From assembly GCA_018262705.1 (NCBI GenBank), contig JADFDQ010000002.1, positions 175,248-239,247 of the forward strand: a DNA stretch of 64,000 bases, read 5' to 3'. This stretch comes from Xanthomonas sp. (GTDB lineage Bacteria; Pseudomonadota; Gammaproteobacteria; Xanthomonadales; Xanthomonadaceae). The position numbers and the translations under genes are program-made. Under the pieces are notes generated by a model. It did not search any database and had not been told where the DNA came from. It worked only from the letters and a program-made list of their open reading frames with translations. Shown one piece after another: positions 15,373-48,851 of the stretch (position 1 is its first letter; each line of letters begins with the position of its first letter).

Positions 15373-15704
15373 TGTAGGAGCGCACCGAGGCCGCAGGCCG
15401 AGGGGCGCGATGAACGCGCGCAATGCCTGCCTTCACGCCCTGCCGGTCGCGCCCCTGCGGTGCGCTCCTACGGATGGAACGCAGCCCAGCCCTCACGCCC
15501 TCGGTCGCGCCCCTGTGGTGCGCTCCTACGGATGGAACGCAACCCAGCCCTCACGCCCTCGGTCGCGCCCCTGTGGTGCGCTCCTACGGATGGAACGCAG
15601 CCTACCTGTAGGAGCGCACCGAGGCCGCAGGCCGCGGGGCGCGATGCGCGCGCCCAATGCCTGCCATCACGCCCTGCCGGTCGCGCCCCTGCGGTGCGCT
15701 CCTA
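15373..15704. repeat. REP array 1 (six copies) beside the RAYT gene
   Basis: Six REP palindromes fill the 426-base gap upstream of the acyltransferase. Two are long-form plus-strand copies (about 15373-15411 and 15607-15645). Four are short-form minus-strand copies (about 15447-15471, 15505-15529, 15563-15587 and 15681-15704). The spacer GGATGGAACGCA-GCCCAGCCCTCACGCCCTC recurs between copies, so units were amplified as blocks. No gene is seen in this gap. Confidence 0.92.
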
Positions 15705-15763
15705 TCTAACGTCAAGGTGTTTTCCGATTGGCGCGAAATTCGACCAATGCCACATTGGACAGC

Positions 15764-16222
15764 ATGTCGCTTTCCGGCCATCGAGCACTGCGCAAAGGGC
15801 GTTTCAGCATCCCCAATCAGGTCTATCACCTGACCACGGCGACGGCCGACCGAAAACCCGTGTTCCTTGACTGCCGAGCCGCCTTTGCGGCGTGTCGTCG
15901 GTTCGAAGACAGCGCTCTGCTGGCAGATGCCACGATGCTTGCTTGGGTTCTGATGCCTGATCACGCGCATTGGTTGCTGCAACTTGGCGAACACAAATCG
16001 CTGGAAAAATCGGTCGAATCGTTGAAATCCTGTTCCGCGCACGCTGCAAACATCGCGAACGGTTCCAGCGGCCCGGTCTGGGCTCGCGGATTTCATGATC
16101 GGGCCATTCGCAGCGACGAAAACCTGAAATCGGTTGCCCGATATATCGTTGCAAACCCAATACGTGCGGGTCTGGTCAAAAGCATCGGTCTGTATCCGTA
16201 TTGGAACACGATCTACCTGTAG
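15764..16222 (+). CDS. REP-associated tyrosine transposase (RAYT)
   Basis: Y1-type single-strand transposase of the family that moves REP palindromes. Counting from ATG 15764 (152 aa), the HUH-like motif is H67/H69 in LMPDHAHWLL. A basic segment VWARGFHDRAI follows, and the likely catalytic tyrosine is Y127 in SVARYIVANPIRAGLV. The track start, TTG 15728, would add 12 residues. It is on the plus strand, against the operon, and lies between two REP arrays. Its stop codon TAG is the TAG of a downstream REP (CTGTAGGAG), so gene and element are physically joined. Confidence 0.92.
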   Translation: MSLSGHRALRKGRFSIPNQVYHLTTATADRKPVFLDCRAAFAACRRFEDSALLADATMLAWVLMPDHAHWLLQLGEHKSLEKSVESLKSCSAHAANIANGSSGPVWARGFHDRAIRSDENLKSVARYIVANPIRAGLVKSIGLYPYWNTIYL

Positions 16223-16256
16223 GAGCGCACCGAGGCCGCAGGCCGCGGGGCGCGAT
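16218..16256 (+). repeat. REP copy overlapping the RAYT stop codon
   Basis: Long-form REP starting TGTAGGAGCGCACCGAGGCC. Its TAG (16220-16222) terminates the RAYT frame. Such linkage of transposase and REP is expected for a RAYT-REP unit. Confidence 0.88.
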
Positions 16257-16316: not shown

Positions 16317-16511
16317 ATGCGAACCAATATCGTGATCGACGACAAGCTCATGCGCGATTCGCTGAAAGCGACCGGCGCGAAGACCAAGCGCGAGGTCGTG
16401 GAACTCGGGTTGCGCACGTTGCTGAAATTGAAGCGTCAACAGCAAATCCAGTCGCTGCGCGGGAAGATCGACTGGCAAGGCGACCTGGAGCGGATGCGAC
16501 TCGACCAATGA
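16317..16511 (+). CDS. vapB: VapB-type antitoxin
   Basis: A 64-aa ribbon-helix-helix antitoxin. MRTNIVIDDKLMRDSLKATG is the DNA-binding strand and first helix, followed by TKREVVELGLRTLLKLKRQ. The C-terminal toxin-binding tail is RGKIDWQGDLERMRLDQ. It overlaps vapC by 4 bases. It is one of the few plus-strand genes in the polysaccharide locus, next to the RAYT and between REP arrays. Confidence 0.92.
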   Translation: MRTNIVIDDKLMRDSLKATGAKTKREVVELGLRTLLKLKRQQQIQSLRGKIDWQGDLERMRLDQ

Positions 16512-16909
16512 TCCTGGTCGATTCGAGCGTCTGGATCGACTACCTGCGTGGAATCGAAACCCGGCAGACGGATCGACTGCATGCGTTGCTGGGCATCGAG
16601 CCGTTGGCGGTGGGCGACCTGATCCTGACCGAGGTGCTGCAGGGGACGGTGACGGAAAAGGCGTTCAATGACGTGTCCCGTCTTCTCGGCAGCCTGGATG
16701 TGGTCGAACTCGGCGGTCATGCGATTGCGATACAGGCCGCGCGCAATTTCCGGACGCTGCGTTCGCACGAGGTGACTGTCAGGAAAACCATCGACTGCAT
16801 CATCGCGACCCGGTGCATCGAGGACGATCTGACCCTGCTGCACAGCGACCGCGACTTCGACCCGTTTGTCGCACACCTTGGGCTGCGCACGGTGTTCGGA
16901 TGTGAGTGA
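16508..16909 (+). CDS. vapC: VapC-type PIN-domain toxin
   Basis: A 133-aa PIN ribonuclease. Acidic metal ligands are visible at D5 in MILVDSSVWIDYL, E in DLILTEVLQG, D in VRKTIDCIIATRC and D in LLHSDRDFDPF. Together with vapB it forms a standard vapBC operon. The region after it (16910-17330) holds only REP copies. Confidence 0.92.
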   Translation: MILVDSSVWIDYLRGIETRQTDRLHALLGIEPLAVGDLILTEVLQGTVTEKAFNDVSRLLGSLDVVELGGHAIAIQAARNFRTLRSHEVTVRKTIDCIIATRCIEDDLTLLHSDRDFDPFVAHLGLRTVFGCE

Positions 16910-16958: not shown

Positions 16959-17330
16959 TGTAGGAGCGCACCGAGACCGCAGGCCGAGGGGCGCGATGCA
17001 CGCGCCCAATGCCTGCCTTCACGCCCTGCCGGTCGCGCCCCTGCGGTGCGCTCCTACGGATGGAACGCCATCCACCTGTAGGAGCGCACCGAGGCCGCAG
17101 GCCGAGGGGCGCGATGCGCGCGCCCAATGCCTGCCATCACACCCTGCCGGTCGCGCCCCGGTGGTGCGCTCCTACGGGGGGAACGCAGCCCACCTGTAGG
17201 AGCGCACCGAGACCGCAGGCCAAGGGGCGCGATGAGCGTGCCCAATGCCTGCCTTCACGCCCTGCCGGTCGCGCCCCTGCGGTGCGCTCCTACGATCCGT
17301 ATCGGTCGCGCCCCTGCGGTGCGCTCCTAC
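16959..17330. repeat. REP array 2 (seven copies)
   Basis: Alternating long plus-strand and short minus-strand REP copies at about 16959-16996, 17033-17057, 17077-17115, 17149-17174, 17195-17233, 17269-17293 and 17306-17330. The alternation makes head-to-head pairs with conserved inner spacers (CCCAATGCCTGCC.TCAC). This 417-base gap contains no gene. The last copy supplies the stop codon of the next glycosyltransferase. Confidence 0.92.
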
Positions 17331-35418: not shown

Positions 35419-36714
35419 TCAATGCCGTTGCCCCGACTTCGGTACGTTCTTGGCACCTACCAGCACCGCCCGATACAACGCGAGGTAGCGCTCGGCGATG
35501 TGGCTTTCATCAAAATTCGCCACCACGTGCGCTTGGCCGCCCGCCGCAAACCGCCGCCTGAGCGGTGCATCGTCCACCAATTCCTGCAGCGCGGCCGCAA
35601 GCGCTTTGGTATCCCTGCGCGGAACCACCAAGCCGCCAACGCCATGCAACACGACCTCGGGAATTCCGCCGCTGTCAAAACTCACGACCGGCGTGCCGCA
35701 GGCCTGCGACTCTGCCCCGATCCGCCCGAATGTCTCCACTTCCGACGAGACGAGGGTGATGTCGGCGGCTTGGTAGCAGCGCGCCATCGCTTCCGGCTCG
35801 CTCTGGAAAGGCAGCACGATCGAGGGAACGTTCAACTGTCCCGCCACATGCGCAGCGGAGCGTCCGATGACCAGCGCCCGCACGCCGCTGCGATCCTGCA
35901 ATGCATTCAGCGCGGCAACCGCGTGGTGGGTCGCGATGCCGAAGCGGTGCCATTCCACGGTTTGGCCCGCCAGCAACACGACGACTTCACCCGCGTCGAG
36001 GCCGAGTGCCTCGCGTTGTTGCTGCCGCAGCTCCGGTGCAACCGGACGGAACACCGAGAGGTCGATGCCGTTGTAGATGCGCGTGACCGGCTTGTCGGCC
36101 AGGATCGGGCTTTCCGCCACGCGCTGCTTCACCTCGTCGGAGATCGTCACCACATGCAAATTCGAGCGCGCGATGAGCCGGCGCTTGCGCAGCCAATTGG
36201 CATGTGTTCCGTCACGGGGAATCGCTGGCGGAAGGGTCAAATCCGGGCACTGCCCGCAGCCGATCTTCCAGCGCATGCAATCCATGTACACCGCGCAGTG
36301 CCCGGTCAGCATCCAGTAATCGCGCAGGGTCAACACGCCGGGAATCTTGCGGGTGATCGCCGGCAGTGCGGACAGGTCGGCATAGCCGGACGATCCCCAC
36401 AGCGAATGGAAATGGACGATGTCGAAACGCCCATCCAGCAGTTTCGCAAGGTGGCGGAAGCTCGGGTTGTAGATGTCCTGCCAACCGAACTGGCGTTCCA
36501 GCGCACGGGCCAATCGCCGCGAGCCGGGGATGCCGCGCACGTAGGGAATCTTTTCGACGCCCGGTTCGTCGGTCTTTTTTTCACCCACGAACAGGGTCGA
36601 AGCATGCCCGGCCGTGCGCAGTCCCCGGTGCAGGCTGACGACGCTGCGTTCGGCGCCACCGCCAAGATCGGCGGCGTGGATCAGGGCGATCCGCAGCGGC
36701 GCGTCCCCGTTCAA
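35419..36714 (-). CDS. Glycosyltransferase family 4
   Basis: A 431-aa GT-B transferase. The opening LRIALIHAADLGGGAERSVVSLHRGL has the acceptor-domain glycine loop. LRDYWMLTGHCAVYMDCMRWKIGCGQCPDL is a Cys-rich segment found in a WcaI/Bac-type GT4 subgroup. The donor domain has ITLVSSEVETFGRIGAESQACG (E-x7-E). The start TTG 36714 overlaps the upstream asnB stop (TTTGA); the longer track start is in a wrong frame. Confidence 0.82.
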   Translation of the reverse strand: MNGDAPLRIALIHAADLGGGAERSVVSLHRGLRTAGHASTLFVGEKKTDEPGVEKIPYVRGIPGSRRLARALERQFGWQDIYNPSFRHLAKLLDGRFDIVHFHSLWGSSGYADLSALPAITRKIPGVLTLRDYWMLTGHCAVYMDCMRWKIGCGQCPDLTLPPAIPRDGTHANWLRKRRLIARSNLHVVTISDEVKQRVAESPILADKPVTRIYNGIDLSVFRPVAPELRQQQREALGLDAGEVVVLLAGQTVEWHRFGIATHHAVAALNALQDRSGVRALVIGRSAAHVAGQLNVPSIVLPFQSEPEAMARCYQAADITLVSSEVETFGRIGAESQACGTPVVSFDSGGIPEVVLHGVGGLVVPRRDTKALAAALQELVDDAPLRRRFAAGGQAHVVANFDESHIAERYLALYRAVLVGAKNVPKSGQRH

Positions 36715-38567
36715 ACGGCTTCCTGCCTGCGCCATTCCGCCAGCATCAACAGGCTCCACAGCCGCAGCCCGTGGTTGAAGTCGTTGCCGTGGGCAGCGAG
36801 CATTCCGCGCACCACCTCCATGTCGAACCATGCGTCCAGCCCGCTGGAGGCATCCAGCAGCCGTTCGCGCACCCGGCCCTTGTTTGCCCCGCCGAGCCAA
36901 TCGCCGATGGGGATGGAGAAGCCGCGCTTGCGGGTGTTCAACATTTCCCAAGGATAAAACCGGCTGGCGGCTTTCTTCAGCGCGTACTTGCCGCACCAGG
37001 TGCCGCCCGCTTCCCCTTCGAGCCAGCGCAATCGCATCGACGGCGGCATCGTGGCCACCGTTTCCAACAGACGATGGTCGAGCAGCGGCACCCGCACTTC
37101 CAATCCGTGCGCCATGCTGGCGATATCGACCTTGGTCAGGTTGTCGTTGACCAGATAAGTCTCGATATCGACCAACTGGCAGCGGCTCAGCGGATCGCCC
37201 TTGCCCGCGGCAACGAAGCGCTCGCGATTCCAGTCGCGGGTCGCCGCGACATGGTGCTGATAGTCGCCACGCCACAGTTGCATCCGCTGCGCATCGGGAA
37301 TGCACGGCGACCGTCCGTACCAGGCCTCGGCCAGCGTTGGCGCCGCGCGCAGCACCCCGGCGTTGCGCAAGACATTGCCTGCCAACCGACGCAGGTGACG
37401 CACGCGTCCCGTCGGCTCACGGTACATCTGCGCCAGCTTCGGAAAATACGAATAGCCGGCAAACACCTCGTCGCCGCCGTCGCCCGACAGCACCATCGGC
37501 ACCTGCCGGCGCGCTTCCTCGCACACGCGCCAGGTGCACACCGCCGAGCTGTCGGCAAAGGGTTCCCCGTAGTGCTGCGCCAGCGTCGGCAGCAGGCCGA
37601 GCGCGTCCACCCCGACCACGGTTTCTGCGTGCTGCGTGCCGGCGAGTTCAGAGAACTTCCGCGCCGGTTCGCGCTCATCGAGGCCCGGAAAATCAAAGCC
37701 AATCGTGAAGGTACGCAGCGGCGCATCGAGATGGCGCGCCGCGTAGGCCACCACGGTGCTGGAATCCACGCCGCCGGACAGGAACGCCCCAAACGGCACG
37801 TCGGCCACGAGATGCGAACCCACCGCGTCGTGCAGCGCCGCATCCAGCGCCTCGATCCATTCCGCTTCGCTGCGCCGCACTTCGGGCCGCCACTGCAACG
37901 CCCAGTAGCGTTTCGGCCCCTCGATCCGACCATCGGCACCGACCTGCATCCAGTGGCCGGGTTCCAGCTTGCGGATCCCGCGGTAGATGCTTTTCGGCGC
38001 CGGGACGTAGAGCAGGTGCAGGTAGTGGTCGAGCGCGTCCAGGTCCACCCGGCGATCCGCGCCCGGCCAGGCGCGCAGCGCCTGCAATTCCGATGCGAAA
38101 GCGAACCCGTCCTTGCCGATTGCATAGCACAGCGGTTTGATGCCCACCCGATCACGCGCCAACAGCAGCTTTTGCCTGCGCCCATCCCACAGCGCGAAAG
38201 CGAACATGCCGCGCAACCGCTGCAGCACATCGATGCCCCACTCCGCGTAGCCGTGCAGGATGGTTTCGCAATCGCCATTGCTGGAAAAGACGTGCCCACG
38301 CGCGATCAACTCGGCGCGCAGCTCGCGATAGTTGTAGATCTCCCCGTTGGCGACCAGCCACAGGCTGCGATCCGCATTGTGCAAGGGCTGCTGCCCGGTG
38401 GCAGGATCGATGATCGCCAGCCGTCGGTGCGCCAGCGCCAGCGGCCCTTCGACGTGGATATCGCCGCCATCCGGCCCACGGTGCACCTGACGGGCGTTCA
38501 TCGCTTCCGCGAGTTCGCGCTGCGCCGGCTTGCCGTCAAAGTTCAGGAAGCCGGCGATGCCGCACAT
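36711..38567 (-). CDS. asnB: Asparagine synthase-type amidotransferase (second copy)
   Basis: A 618-aa enzyme with catalytic C2 ([12 protein letters not shown]), HRGPDGGD and VANGEIYNYRELR in the glutaminase domain, then FGAFLSGGVDSSTVVAY and LSGDGGDEVFAGYSYF in the ATP-dependent synthetase domain. It is not close to the other AsnB outside these motifs, so the two probably amidate different substrates. Its start overlaps the preceding glycosyltransferase's 3' end by about 25 bases. A role in amidating a uronic acid of the glycan is inferred from context. Confidence 0.88.
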   Translation of the reverse strand: MCGIAGFLNFDGKPAQRELAEAMNARQVHRGPDGGDIHVEGPLALAHRRLAIIDPATGQQPLHNADRSLWLVANGEIYNYRELRAELIARGHVFSSNGDCETILHGYAEWGIDVLQRLRGMFAFALWDGRRQKLLLARDRVGIKPLCYAIGKDGFAFASELQALRAWPGADRRVDLDALDHYLHLLYVPAPKSIYRGIRKLEPGHWMQVGADGRIEGPKRYWALQWRPEVRRSEAEWIEALDAALHDAVGSHLVADVPFGAFLSGGVDSSTVVAYAARHLDAPLRTFTIGFDFPGLDEREPARKFSELAGTQHAETVVGVDALGLLPTLAQHYGEPFADSSAVCTWRVCEEARRQVPMVLSGDGGDEVFAGYSYFPKLAQMYREPTGRVRHLRRLAGNVLRNAGVLRAAPTLAEAWYGRSPCIPDAQRMQLWRGDYQHHVAATRDWNRERFVAAGKGDPLSRCQLVDIETYLVNDNLTKVDIASMAHGLEVRVPLLDHRLLETVATMPPSMRLRWLEGEAGGTWCGKYALKKAASRFYPWEMLNTRKRGFSIPIGDWLGGANKGRVRERLLDASSGLDAWFDMEVVRGMLAAHGNDFNHGLRLWSLLMLAEWRRQEAV

Positions 38568-39835
38568 GGTGTAATCGTTTCCTCGGTTTCATCCGTTGCG
38601 CGCTGTCCGATCCGGACCGGAAGTTCGATTTCCAGAAATTCGGCAAAACTGTTGCGAAAGCACTCCACCGTGAACGTTTCCGACAATGCGCGCGCACCGG
38701 CATCGATCGCAGTCGTGCGCAGCGCCGGATCGACGCACAAACCACGCAATGCCTCGGCCAAGACTTCGGCATCCAGCCGGGTGACGCACGCGCCAAACGG
38801 ATAGCGTTCAAAGAATGCCGGCAGCGAAGCATGCGGCGGCGCGTGCAGCAGGATCGGCGCACCGGCTGCGAGGTAGGTCGTGGTCTTGGACGGAAAGGAG
38901 AACTCAGAAAATGCCCGCCAGTCCTGCTCGAACGGCTGCGGCAGGTAATTGACGTCGCAGCCGGACAGCAGAGCAATGGTGTCGTCCACGGATCGGTAGC
39001 CATGGCATTCGATCCGGCGCGGCACCGACGACCACAGGTCGAAGCGTTGACCCATCAAGACCAACGTGACCGCGCGCCGATCAATGGCCCAGCCCAGATG
39101 GTCGAGGGCTTGCAGCAGGCATTGGAATGCGCTGCGGGCGGTGACGCTGCCGGCGAATCCGATCCGGATCGAAGATTCTTCGCGCCCCTGCGGTGCGCTC
39201 CTACGGGGTGGCGAATCCGCGCCGTGGCGCAGGATGACGCCCTCTTTTCCGTAGCGGCGATGGTATTCTTCGCGCATGGTCTCGCCGATGACTGCTAGGG
39301 ATGTCGACGCCCGTATCGCCGCTTCGAAATTGCGCCGGCACGCCGCTGCGGTGAACCGATCCAGCCCGAAATAGCGGACGTTGTGTTCGATGTCATCCCA
39401 CACCAGGGTGCGCAACGGCAGTCCAAGCACATCGGCAACCTGCGCGGCCACGGCAATGCTGGCCGGCGTGTCCAGCACCGACCAGATTTCCTCGACGTTC
39501 CGGCTGCGCGCATGGTCGGCGCAAGCGCGAACCGCCGCAGCAATGCGCCGGCGATTGGCCATCGTCATTCGCAGCCAGTCGAACGCCTTCCCGATTCGCC
39601 CGAAACGCGACTGCGGCCGTCGTTCGAAGCGGCAGCCCAACACGCGCATGGGGTTGCCGCGTGCGGTTCGCGTGTCGCGCGCCGCGTCCGAGTCATCGGC
39701 AATGTGTACGACCATCAGGGAACCGGGCGGCAGGAAGGATTCCAGATCGTGCAGGATGATCCCGCCAACCCCTTCCGGGCCGGGCGCCGTGCCGGTCAAC
39801 AGCAATCGCTTGCGGTCAGCCAACGTGCCGCTCAT
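38543..39835 (-). CDS. Glycosyltransferase (GT-B) with an in-frame REP insertion
   Basis: A 430-aa protein probably transferring a sugar. It has [41 protein letters not shown], then [22 protein letters not shown] (donor-domain start) and [35 protein letters not shown]. Residues about 210-219, [10 protein letters not shown], are encoded by a REP palindrome at 39179-39204, read in frame in the linker between the two domains. ATG 39835 overlaps the epimerase stop by about 20 bases. Family number cannot be fixed. Confidence 0.72.
39179..39204 (-). repeat. REP copy inside a coding sequence
   Basis: Short-form REP (plus strand TTCGCGCCCCTGCGGTGCGC...CTAC) within the glycosyltransferase at 38543-39835. 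It is read in frame without creating a stop because the TAG is out of phase. Confidence 0.88.
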
Positions 39836-47041: not shown

Positions 47042-47157
47042 ATCGCGCCCCTCGGCCTGCGGCCTCGGTGCGCTCCTACGGGTGCGGGGGGGTGTAGGAC
47101 CGCACCGCAGCGGCGCGATGGATCAGGGGTTGTAGGAGCGCACCGCAGGGGCGCGAT
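47042..47157. repeat. Three REP copies between wzm and galE
   Basis: A long minus-strand copy (47042-47079), a variant plus copy (47093-47119, with AGGACCGCACC) and a plus copy at 47131-47157. A seven-G run lies between the first two. The third copy is inside galE and encodes its C-terminus. Confidence 0.88.
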
Positions 47158-48127
47158 GGATGCGTTGCTGCCAGCGCCAAGCGGTGCCGATGATGGTGTC
47201 GAGGTCGGCGTAGTTCGGCGACCAACCGAGTTCGCGGCGGATGCGGCTGGCATCGCCGACCAGCACCGCCGGATCGCCAGGGCGGCGGGCGCCTTCGGAG
47301 ACGGCGATGTCGCGCCCGGTGACGCGCCGGGCGCAATCGATCACTTCACGCACCGAAAAGCCTTTGCCATTGCCGAGGTTGTACGCCGTGGTCGCGGCCC
47401 CACCCAGCAGTGCTTGCAAGGCCAACACATGGGCGTCGGCCAGATCGCTGACATGGATGTAATCGCGGATGCAGGTACCGTCCGGAGTGGCGTAGTCGCT
47501 GCCGAACACCGTGATATCCGGTCGCGTCCCGGTCGCAGCCTCGAGCACCAGCGGGATCAAATGCGTTTCCGGATCATGGCGCTCGCCGGCCTCGCCGTCC
47601 GGGTCGGCGCCAGCCGCATTGAAATAGCGCAGGCTCATCGAACGCAGCCCGTGGGCCGCGTCGAAATCCGCCAGCATCCGCTCGACCATCCACTTGCTGG
47701 CGCCATAGGGATTGATCGGTTGCTGCGGGTGGTCTTCGGTCAGTGGCAGTCGTTGCGGCACGCCGTAGGTGGCGCAGGTGCTGGAAAACACCAGCTTGTC
47801 GATGCCATGGTCACGCATTGCCTCCAGCAGGCCGAGGCTGCCGGCAACGTTGTTGTGGTAGTACTTGCCCGGATCGCGCACCGACTCGCCGACGTAGGCG
47901 TAGGCGGCGAAATGCATGACCGCGATCGGGCGATGGCGATCGATGACGTCGTCCAAGCGGGCGCGATCGGCGAGTGCGCCCTGCTCCAGCGGCCCCCAGC
48001 GCACGGCGTCGGCGTGGCCGTGTTCGAGGCTGTCGTAGCTCACCGGCAGGAACCCGGCACGCGCCAGCGCCTTGCAGGCATGGCTGCCGATGTAGCCGGC
48101 GCCGCCGGTGACGAGAATGGTGCTCAT
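47123..48127 (-). CDS. galE: UDP-glucose 4-epimerase
   Basis: A 334-aa epimerase interconverting UDP-glucose and UDP-galactose. Motifs: ILVTGGAGYIGSHACKALA, HFAAYAYVGESV, FSSTCATYG and YGASKWMVE (catalytic Tyr/Lys), FNAAGADPDGE. The final residues [11 protein letters not shown] are encoded by a REP palindrome; the family normally ends around the preceding WRWQQ. So the natural C-terminus was replaced or extended by the repeat. ATG 48127 overlaps the regulator stop by 4 bases. Confidence 0.93.
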   Translation of the reverse strand: MSTILVTGGAGYIGSHACKALARAGFLPVSYDSLEHGHADAVRWGPLEQGALADRARLDDVIDRHRPIAVMHFAAYAYVGESVRDPGKYYHNNVAGSLGLLEAMRDHGIDKLVFSSTCATYGVPQRLPLTEDHPQQPINPYGASKWMVERMLADFDAAHGLRSMSLRYFNAAGADPDGEAGERHDPETHLIPLVLEAATGTRPDITVFGSDYATPDGTCIRDYIHVSDLADAHVLALQALLGGAATTAYNLGNGKGFSVREVIDCARRVTGRDIAVSEGARRPGDPAVLVGDASRIRRELGWSPNYADLDTIIGTAWRWQQRIHRAPAVRSYNP

Positions 48128-48546: not shown

Positions 48547-48825
48547 TCGCGCCCCTGCGGTGCGCTCCTACAGATGCAGCCGCCCGCAGGGGCGCGATAA
48601 CGCCGAAACGGCCAACCGTAGGAGCGCACCGCAGGGGCGCGATGACGCCGATACGGCCGCCTGTAGGAGCGCACCGCAGGGGCGCGATAACGCCGATACA
48701 GCCGCCCGTAGGAGCACACCGCAGGGGCGCGATGCCGCCGATACAGCCGCCCGTAGGAGCACACCGCAGGGGCGCGATAACGCCGAAACGGCCGCATCTG
48801 TAGGAGCGCACCGCAGGGGCGCGAT
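48547..48825. repeat. REP array 4 with 45-bp direct repeats in the operon leader
   Basis: One minus copy (48547-48571), a half copy (48583-48598) and then five plus-strand copies starting at about 48617, 48662, 48707, 48752 and 48799. Four of these are spaced exactly 45 bases apart, with a near-constant spacer (AACGCCGATACAGCCGCC). Unlike the other arrays, copies are all in one direction, indicating tandem duplication of one unit. Together with the copy at 48906, this explains the 458-base gap upstream of the MarR-like gene. Confidence 0.92.
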
Positions 48826-48851
48826 AACGCCGAAGCATCCGCGATCGCAAA

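Follow-up and report, generated by a model that had tools for sequence, protein, structure and literature searches.

Introduction

The closest described relatives of the repeat discussed here are the GTAG REPs studied by Di Nocera et al. (2013, BMC Genomics 14:522; PMC3733652). ORFs flanking these REPs often take their TAG stop codon from them, and in several species a variable number of GTAG REPs are fully contained in ORFs, with Xanthomonas recB, genes of Stenotrophomonas, and O. terrae among the examples. Such intragenic insertions may be neutral, since they may sit in flexible linkers or loops (PMC3733652). The same paper recalls the in-frame RPEs of Rickettsia as a parallel and places the intragenic RPE-4 and RPE-6 among the CGTC repeats of R. 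conorii. A further related class is that of the REPINs (Bertels and Rainey 2011, PMC3116915), which are extragenic inverted pairs of REPs.

The REP considered here lies in a glycosyltransferase gene of the window, that is, the whole stretch of 64,000 nucleotides that was analysed (Table 1). Like the intragenic GTAG REPs of PMC3733652, it is contained in full in an ORF of more than 120 aa, is read in frame, and plausibly falls in a linker or loop; here too, REP ends give flanking ORFs their TAG stops. It differs from those cases in REP family and host gene, and also in that the linker length is nearly unchanged with respect to an orthologue, which suggests replacement over addition. It shares with the Rickettsia palindromic elements (RPE-1, RPE-4, and RPE-6) the condition of a palindromic repeat in frame within a protein-coding gene, but the sequence families are different, and RPE-1 is longer than the present element, which is 25 nt and GTAG-tagged. 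The REPINs are built from the same kind of RAYT-associated REP, whereas the glycosyltransferase copy is a singleton in a gene. Because in-frame intragenic GTAG REPs have already been reported (PMC3733652), this REP is not new in kind and is a further case of an already described phenomenon.

Table 1. Features of the window that bear on the intragenic REP (positions are those of the window).
Feature	Position	Strand	Comment
RAYT (REP-associated tyrosine transposase; Y1_Tnp, PF01797; motif HAHW)	about 15764..16222	+	sole PF01797 match in the genome
asnB-like asparagine synthase	36711..38567	-	neighbour conserved with the glycosyltransferase
Intact 430-aa glycosyltransferase CDS, probably GT-B/GT4-like	38543..39835	-	3' end overlaps the asnB start, as in the nearest orthologue
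Predicted inter-domain linker, residues 206-222, 17 codons	39170..39220	-	flanked by the conserved motifs RHG and IRIGFAG; nearest orthologue, 16 codons
GTAG-tagged REP of 25 nt, a singleton identical to the consensus	39180..39204	-	encodes residues 211-219, RRSAPQGRE

The REP Family and Its Transposase

The commonest repeat in the window is GTAGGAGCGCACCGCAGGGGCGCGA. With up to 2 mismatches allowed, the whole Thermomonas-like genome (2.49 Mb, 24 contigs) has 139 copies, of which 95 are exact, a copy number in keeping with a GTAG-type REP; the reversed control pattern gave 0. In the window alone, 25 matches occur at up to 3 mismatches, against 0 expected from 100 shuffles. The distribution of the family across 25 genomes of the genus is patchy, with 139 copies here, 169 in G015, 34 in G011, 22 in G019, and few or none in the others. 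Structurally, the 25-nt REP is an imperfect palindrome in the 20-40 bp range whose stem-loop has an interrupted 6-bp stem (GCGC / CC ... GG / GCGC) of -6.5 kcal/mol as DNA. This short hairpin is modestly better than shuffles (z -1.7), and in its local context the value is z -0.5. A second form of 37 nt has a longer inner stem and reaches -11 kcal/mol. Most copies in the genome are near another copy; the singletons are 7 of the 95 exact ones, including that in the glycosyltransferase.

The RAYT gene, about 23 kb from the glycosyltransferase REP, is flanked by REPs on both sides (15374-15705 and 16218-16254), and the adjacent long-form REP at 16218-16254 supplies its TAG stop. The family thus bears the marks of a GTAG REP with its RAYT. 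Two side observations concern the surroundings of these repeats. Beside the RAYT, between REP clusters (16318-16909), two small ORFs resemble, to judge from their sequence, an antitoxin and PIN-domain toxin pair. At 48571-48842, REPs form a tandem array with a 45-nt period and a single orientation, as opposed to the usual inverted pairs.

The Copy inside the Glycosyltransferase Gene

The intragenic copy matches the REP consensus exactly (25/25), with the GTAG tetranucleotide at its end (GTAGGAGCGC... from 39204, reading the minus strand). The sequence-only reading had located it correctly and had set its start one base early (39179-39204 instead of 39180-39204). Its further statement that the REP is read in frame and without a stop inside a glycosyltransferase is borne out: CDS nt 632-656 are read (C)GT AGG AGC GCA CCG CAG GGG CGC GA(A), giving the stop-free residues R211-E219 in an intact gene with conserved coding sequence on either side. 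Lying at residues 211-219 of 430, the REP falls entirely within a credible ORF of 120 aa or more and is clear of any doubtful N-terminus, as in the intragenic REPs of PMC3733652. An open frame across it is not remarkable, because 5 of the 6 REP frames have no stop; in a simulation, a net insertion of 27 nt left each of these five open.

Among the candidate explanations that were rejected is a decayed REPIN partner: a REPIN consists of two inverted REPs with a spacer, whereas no second copy was found within 150 bp of the glycosyltransferase REP, and the interval from RHG to IRIGF is too small to house one. An assembly artefact was rejected by reasoning only, the repeat being shorter than a sequencing read.

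The 430-aa protein is probably a glycosyltransferase of the GT-B type, as judged from its sequence relationships. A Pfam search gave no match above threshold and a PDB search no significant match; a sub-threshold match to the WcaI-family glycosyltransferases covers residues 274-383 (E 2.8e-5), and homologues of the protein have weak GT4-type Pfam matches. The nearest orthologue, with 69% aa identity, is found in a Thermomonas sp. PRO1 MAG (G021), a genome from which the REP is absent. Orthology is supported by the conserved asnB neighbour: the order glycosyltransferase, asnB, glycosyltransferase is common to the window, the G021 orthologue of the same genus, and a Thiocapsa homologue (about 42%), and in G021 the end of the glycosyltransferase gene likewise overlaps the asnB start. 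A wider search for orthologues in the family and class gave distant glycosyltransferases only.

The Linker and Its Orthologues

The REP-encoded residues are flanked by the conserved motifs RHG (203-205) and IRIGFAG (223-229), and the stretch between them varies in sequence and length. In a predicted model, which is of low confidence (mean pLDDT 45), residues 196-221 form a coil that joins a helix to the opening strand of the second half. The earlier proposal of a linker between two GT-B domains fits both the variable stretch and the modelled coil; the inter-domain position is supported but not proven.

Alignment with homologues lacking the segment, which the sequence-only reading had proposed as a check, indicates that the RRSAPQGRE residues are lineage-specific: the orthologues have neither these residues nor REP DNA. 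It had also named homologues carrying the same residues without REP DNA similarity as evidence against its interpretation; the homologues found lack both, and so do not refute it on this point. The linkers of the G021 orthologue and the Thiocapsa homologue are unrelated to the REP-bearing one, and in the former the best REP match is 12/25. Between RHG and IRIGFAG there are 17 residues in the window protein, approximately 9 of them encoded by the REP, and 16 in the orthologue (LKPALRMPGMHEPGSA); the distance from RHG to IGF is 19 residues here and 18-22 in six homologues.

These lengths bear on how the REP was acquired. Removing the 25 nt of the REP from the 51 nt of the linker leaves 26 nt, which is out of frame, so that a clean 25-bp insertion would have broken the frame. 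A 27-nt insertion would need an ancestral linker of 8 codons, which is found in no homologue. Since the linker is only one codon longer than that of the nearest orthologue, the REP has apparently taken the place of native linker DNA of similar length in a nearly length-neutral way, and this is a more economical reading than simple addition.

Where REPs Lie with Respect to Genes

A census was made of 172 REP sites (131 short and 41 long, mismatches allowed) from sampled neighbourhoods and the window; for the genome itself it took in all 95 exact copies and 129 of the 139 copies within 2 mismatches. Genes were called with a home-made codon-bias caller and not with a standard annotation; a stop-to-stop ORF caller was discarded, as it overlooked the glycosyltransferase and, at ORF starts, wrongly scored many REPs as intragenic. 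Intergenic sites were 145 of 172, and 2 overlap a predicted start. In 18 others the GTAG of the REP is the TAG stop of the upstream gene, for example at 16218-16254 and 17306-17330 of the window and at many other loci (L022-L067). The remaining 7 lie inside genes, namely 1 in this glycosyltransferase, 5 in one MmeI-type gene, and 1 in an epimerase gene of the window, where the C-terminus is encoded. In the last case, most of the final residues of what is predicted to be an NAD-dependent epimerase/dehydratase (47126-48127, minus strand) come from an exact REP at 47132-47156, which replaces or extends the C-terminus. Because coding sequence makes up about 85-88% of the sampled DNA (85% for the 172 sites), REPs strongly avoid genes; the family is mostly extragenic, and the glycosyltransferase copy is an exception to this. 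A census of 100 sites in G015 gave 81 intergenic sites, 15 TAG stops, 3 overlaps with a predicted gene end, and 1 "internal" site at codons 2-10, which probably reflects a misplaced gene start.

The sequence-only reading had regarded REPs as strictly intergenic, a view contradicted both by published in-frame intragenic GTAG REPs (PMC3733652) and by the five copies in the MmeI-type gene of the same genome. Its description of an internal, frame-keeping copy as unusual is right as to rarity (7 of 172 sites) but not as to the open frame. The tolerance of such a copy by a linker, which it also proposed, had been put forward earlier (PMC3733652).

Origin and Persistence of the Intragenic REP

The glycosyltransferase REP is very probably a neutral or nearly neutral member of the RAYT family of repeats, in an enzyme that is functional and has a linker able to tolerate it. 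A single copy of this abundant GTAG-type family, spread most likely by the RAYT or alternatively derived from recombination between REP copies, would have come into the linker between the two domains, where it now codes for about 9 of 17 residues. In exchange, some 22-25 nt of native linker would have been lost, by conversion with another REP copy or by insertion and deletion. Selection may then have let the REP stay, as the linker tolerated a change of sequence and the frame was kept, while other REPs landing in genes were presumably mostly purged. No special function for the REP is necessary in this account, and the existence of a second inter-domain REP acceptor in the genome, the MmeI-type gene described below, counts in its favour.

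That ordinary linker codons merely happen to look like a REP can practically be dismissed. A variable linker and a GC-rich genome speak for it, but the 25/25 identity already refutes it; shuffles gave 0 matches even at 3 mismatches, and homologous linkers have no REP similarity. It is unlikely that the REP marks, or has caused, the inactivation of a glycosyltransferase now drifting. The exact match does suggest a probably recent arrival, and a pairwise dN/dS mostly predates such an arrival and is thus compatible with a very recent loss of function. Against this, the ORF is full-length, its C-terminal overlap with asnB is conserved, the motifs on both sides of the REP are intact, and the dN/dS against the G021 orthologue is 0.26 over 429 codons (0.26 and 0.21 for the two halves). 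For the linker the value is about 0.89, from a small sample of 21 codons, which is in line with the tolerant linker of the preferred reading.

An adaptive role is more improbable still. According to this proposal, an mRNA hairpin or a site for RAYT or gyrase would tune the expression of the glycosyltransferase-asnB operon, or a basic linker would alter specificity. In other species, REPs by gene ends are thought to affect mRNA or supercoiling (PMC3733652), and the copy is exactly consensus; this exactness, though, is accounted for by a young family in which 95 of 139 copies are exact. The copy is moreover a singleton conserved in no orthologue, and its hairpin is weak on the values given above and less distinct in context. 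The neutral or nearly neutral reading is therefore preferred. The glycosyltransferase adds to the short list of protein-coding REPs a clean case, in which an orthologue lacking the REP has a linker of near-equal length.

An MmeI-Type Protein with Five REPs

The MmeI-type gene (L058:3-3176, plus strand; G000:C22) encodes a restriction-modification protein with the Pfam domains MmeI_N, hel, Mtase, TRD, and C. It has five exact in-frame REPs at the junction of TRD and C (L058:2561-2840), four of which form an array with a 69-nt (23-codon) period. Taken together, this array and the glycosyltransferase REP suggest that RAYT-associated repeats can survive inside genes in the linkers between domains, a testable route for selfish DNA to add protein sequence. 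A literature search turned up no direct report of in-frame repeats in proteins of the MmeI type.

At the junction of methyltransferase and TRD, the same protein has a different in-frame repeat (SREGGNP...DPRLRGDDE). The MmeI orthologues of G002, G009, G017, G018, and G019 have different repeat-like segments, also in frame, at one junction or at both, and those of G005, G006, G007, G010, G014, and G021 have short junction linkers. The acceptance of repeats at the two junctions looks independent and recurrent, and it supports the tolerance of linkers better than the glycosyltransferase does. A bolder and rather doubtful idea is that REPs, along with other short palindromic repeats, serve Thermomonas as in-frame linker cassettes that can be swapped, by length-neutral replacement in the glycosyltransferase and by repeated acceptance at the same inter-domain junctions across lineages in the MmeI-type proteins. 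If true, a replacement-type, conversion-like route would exist besides plain insertion. In the G019 orthologue (L071), the junction of TRD and C seems to hold, in addition to repeats, an in-frame stretch that resembles a small endonuclease-like domain (ARSLRQHGTDAEQGLWQLLRDRRLGGFKFRRQHP...).
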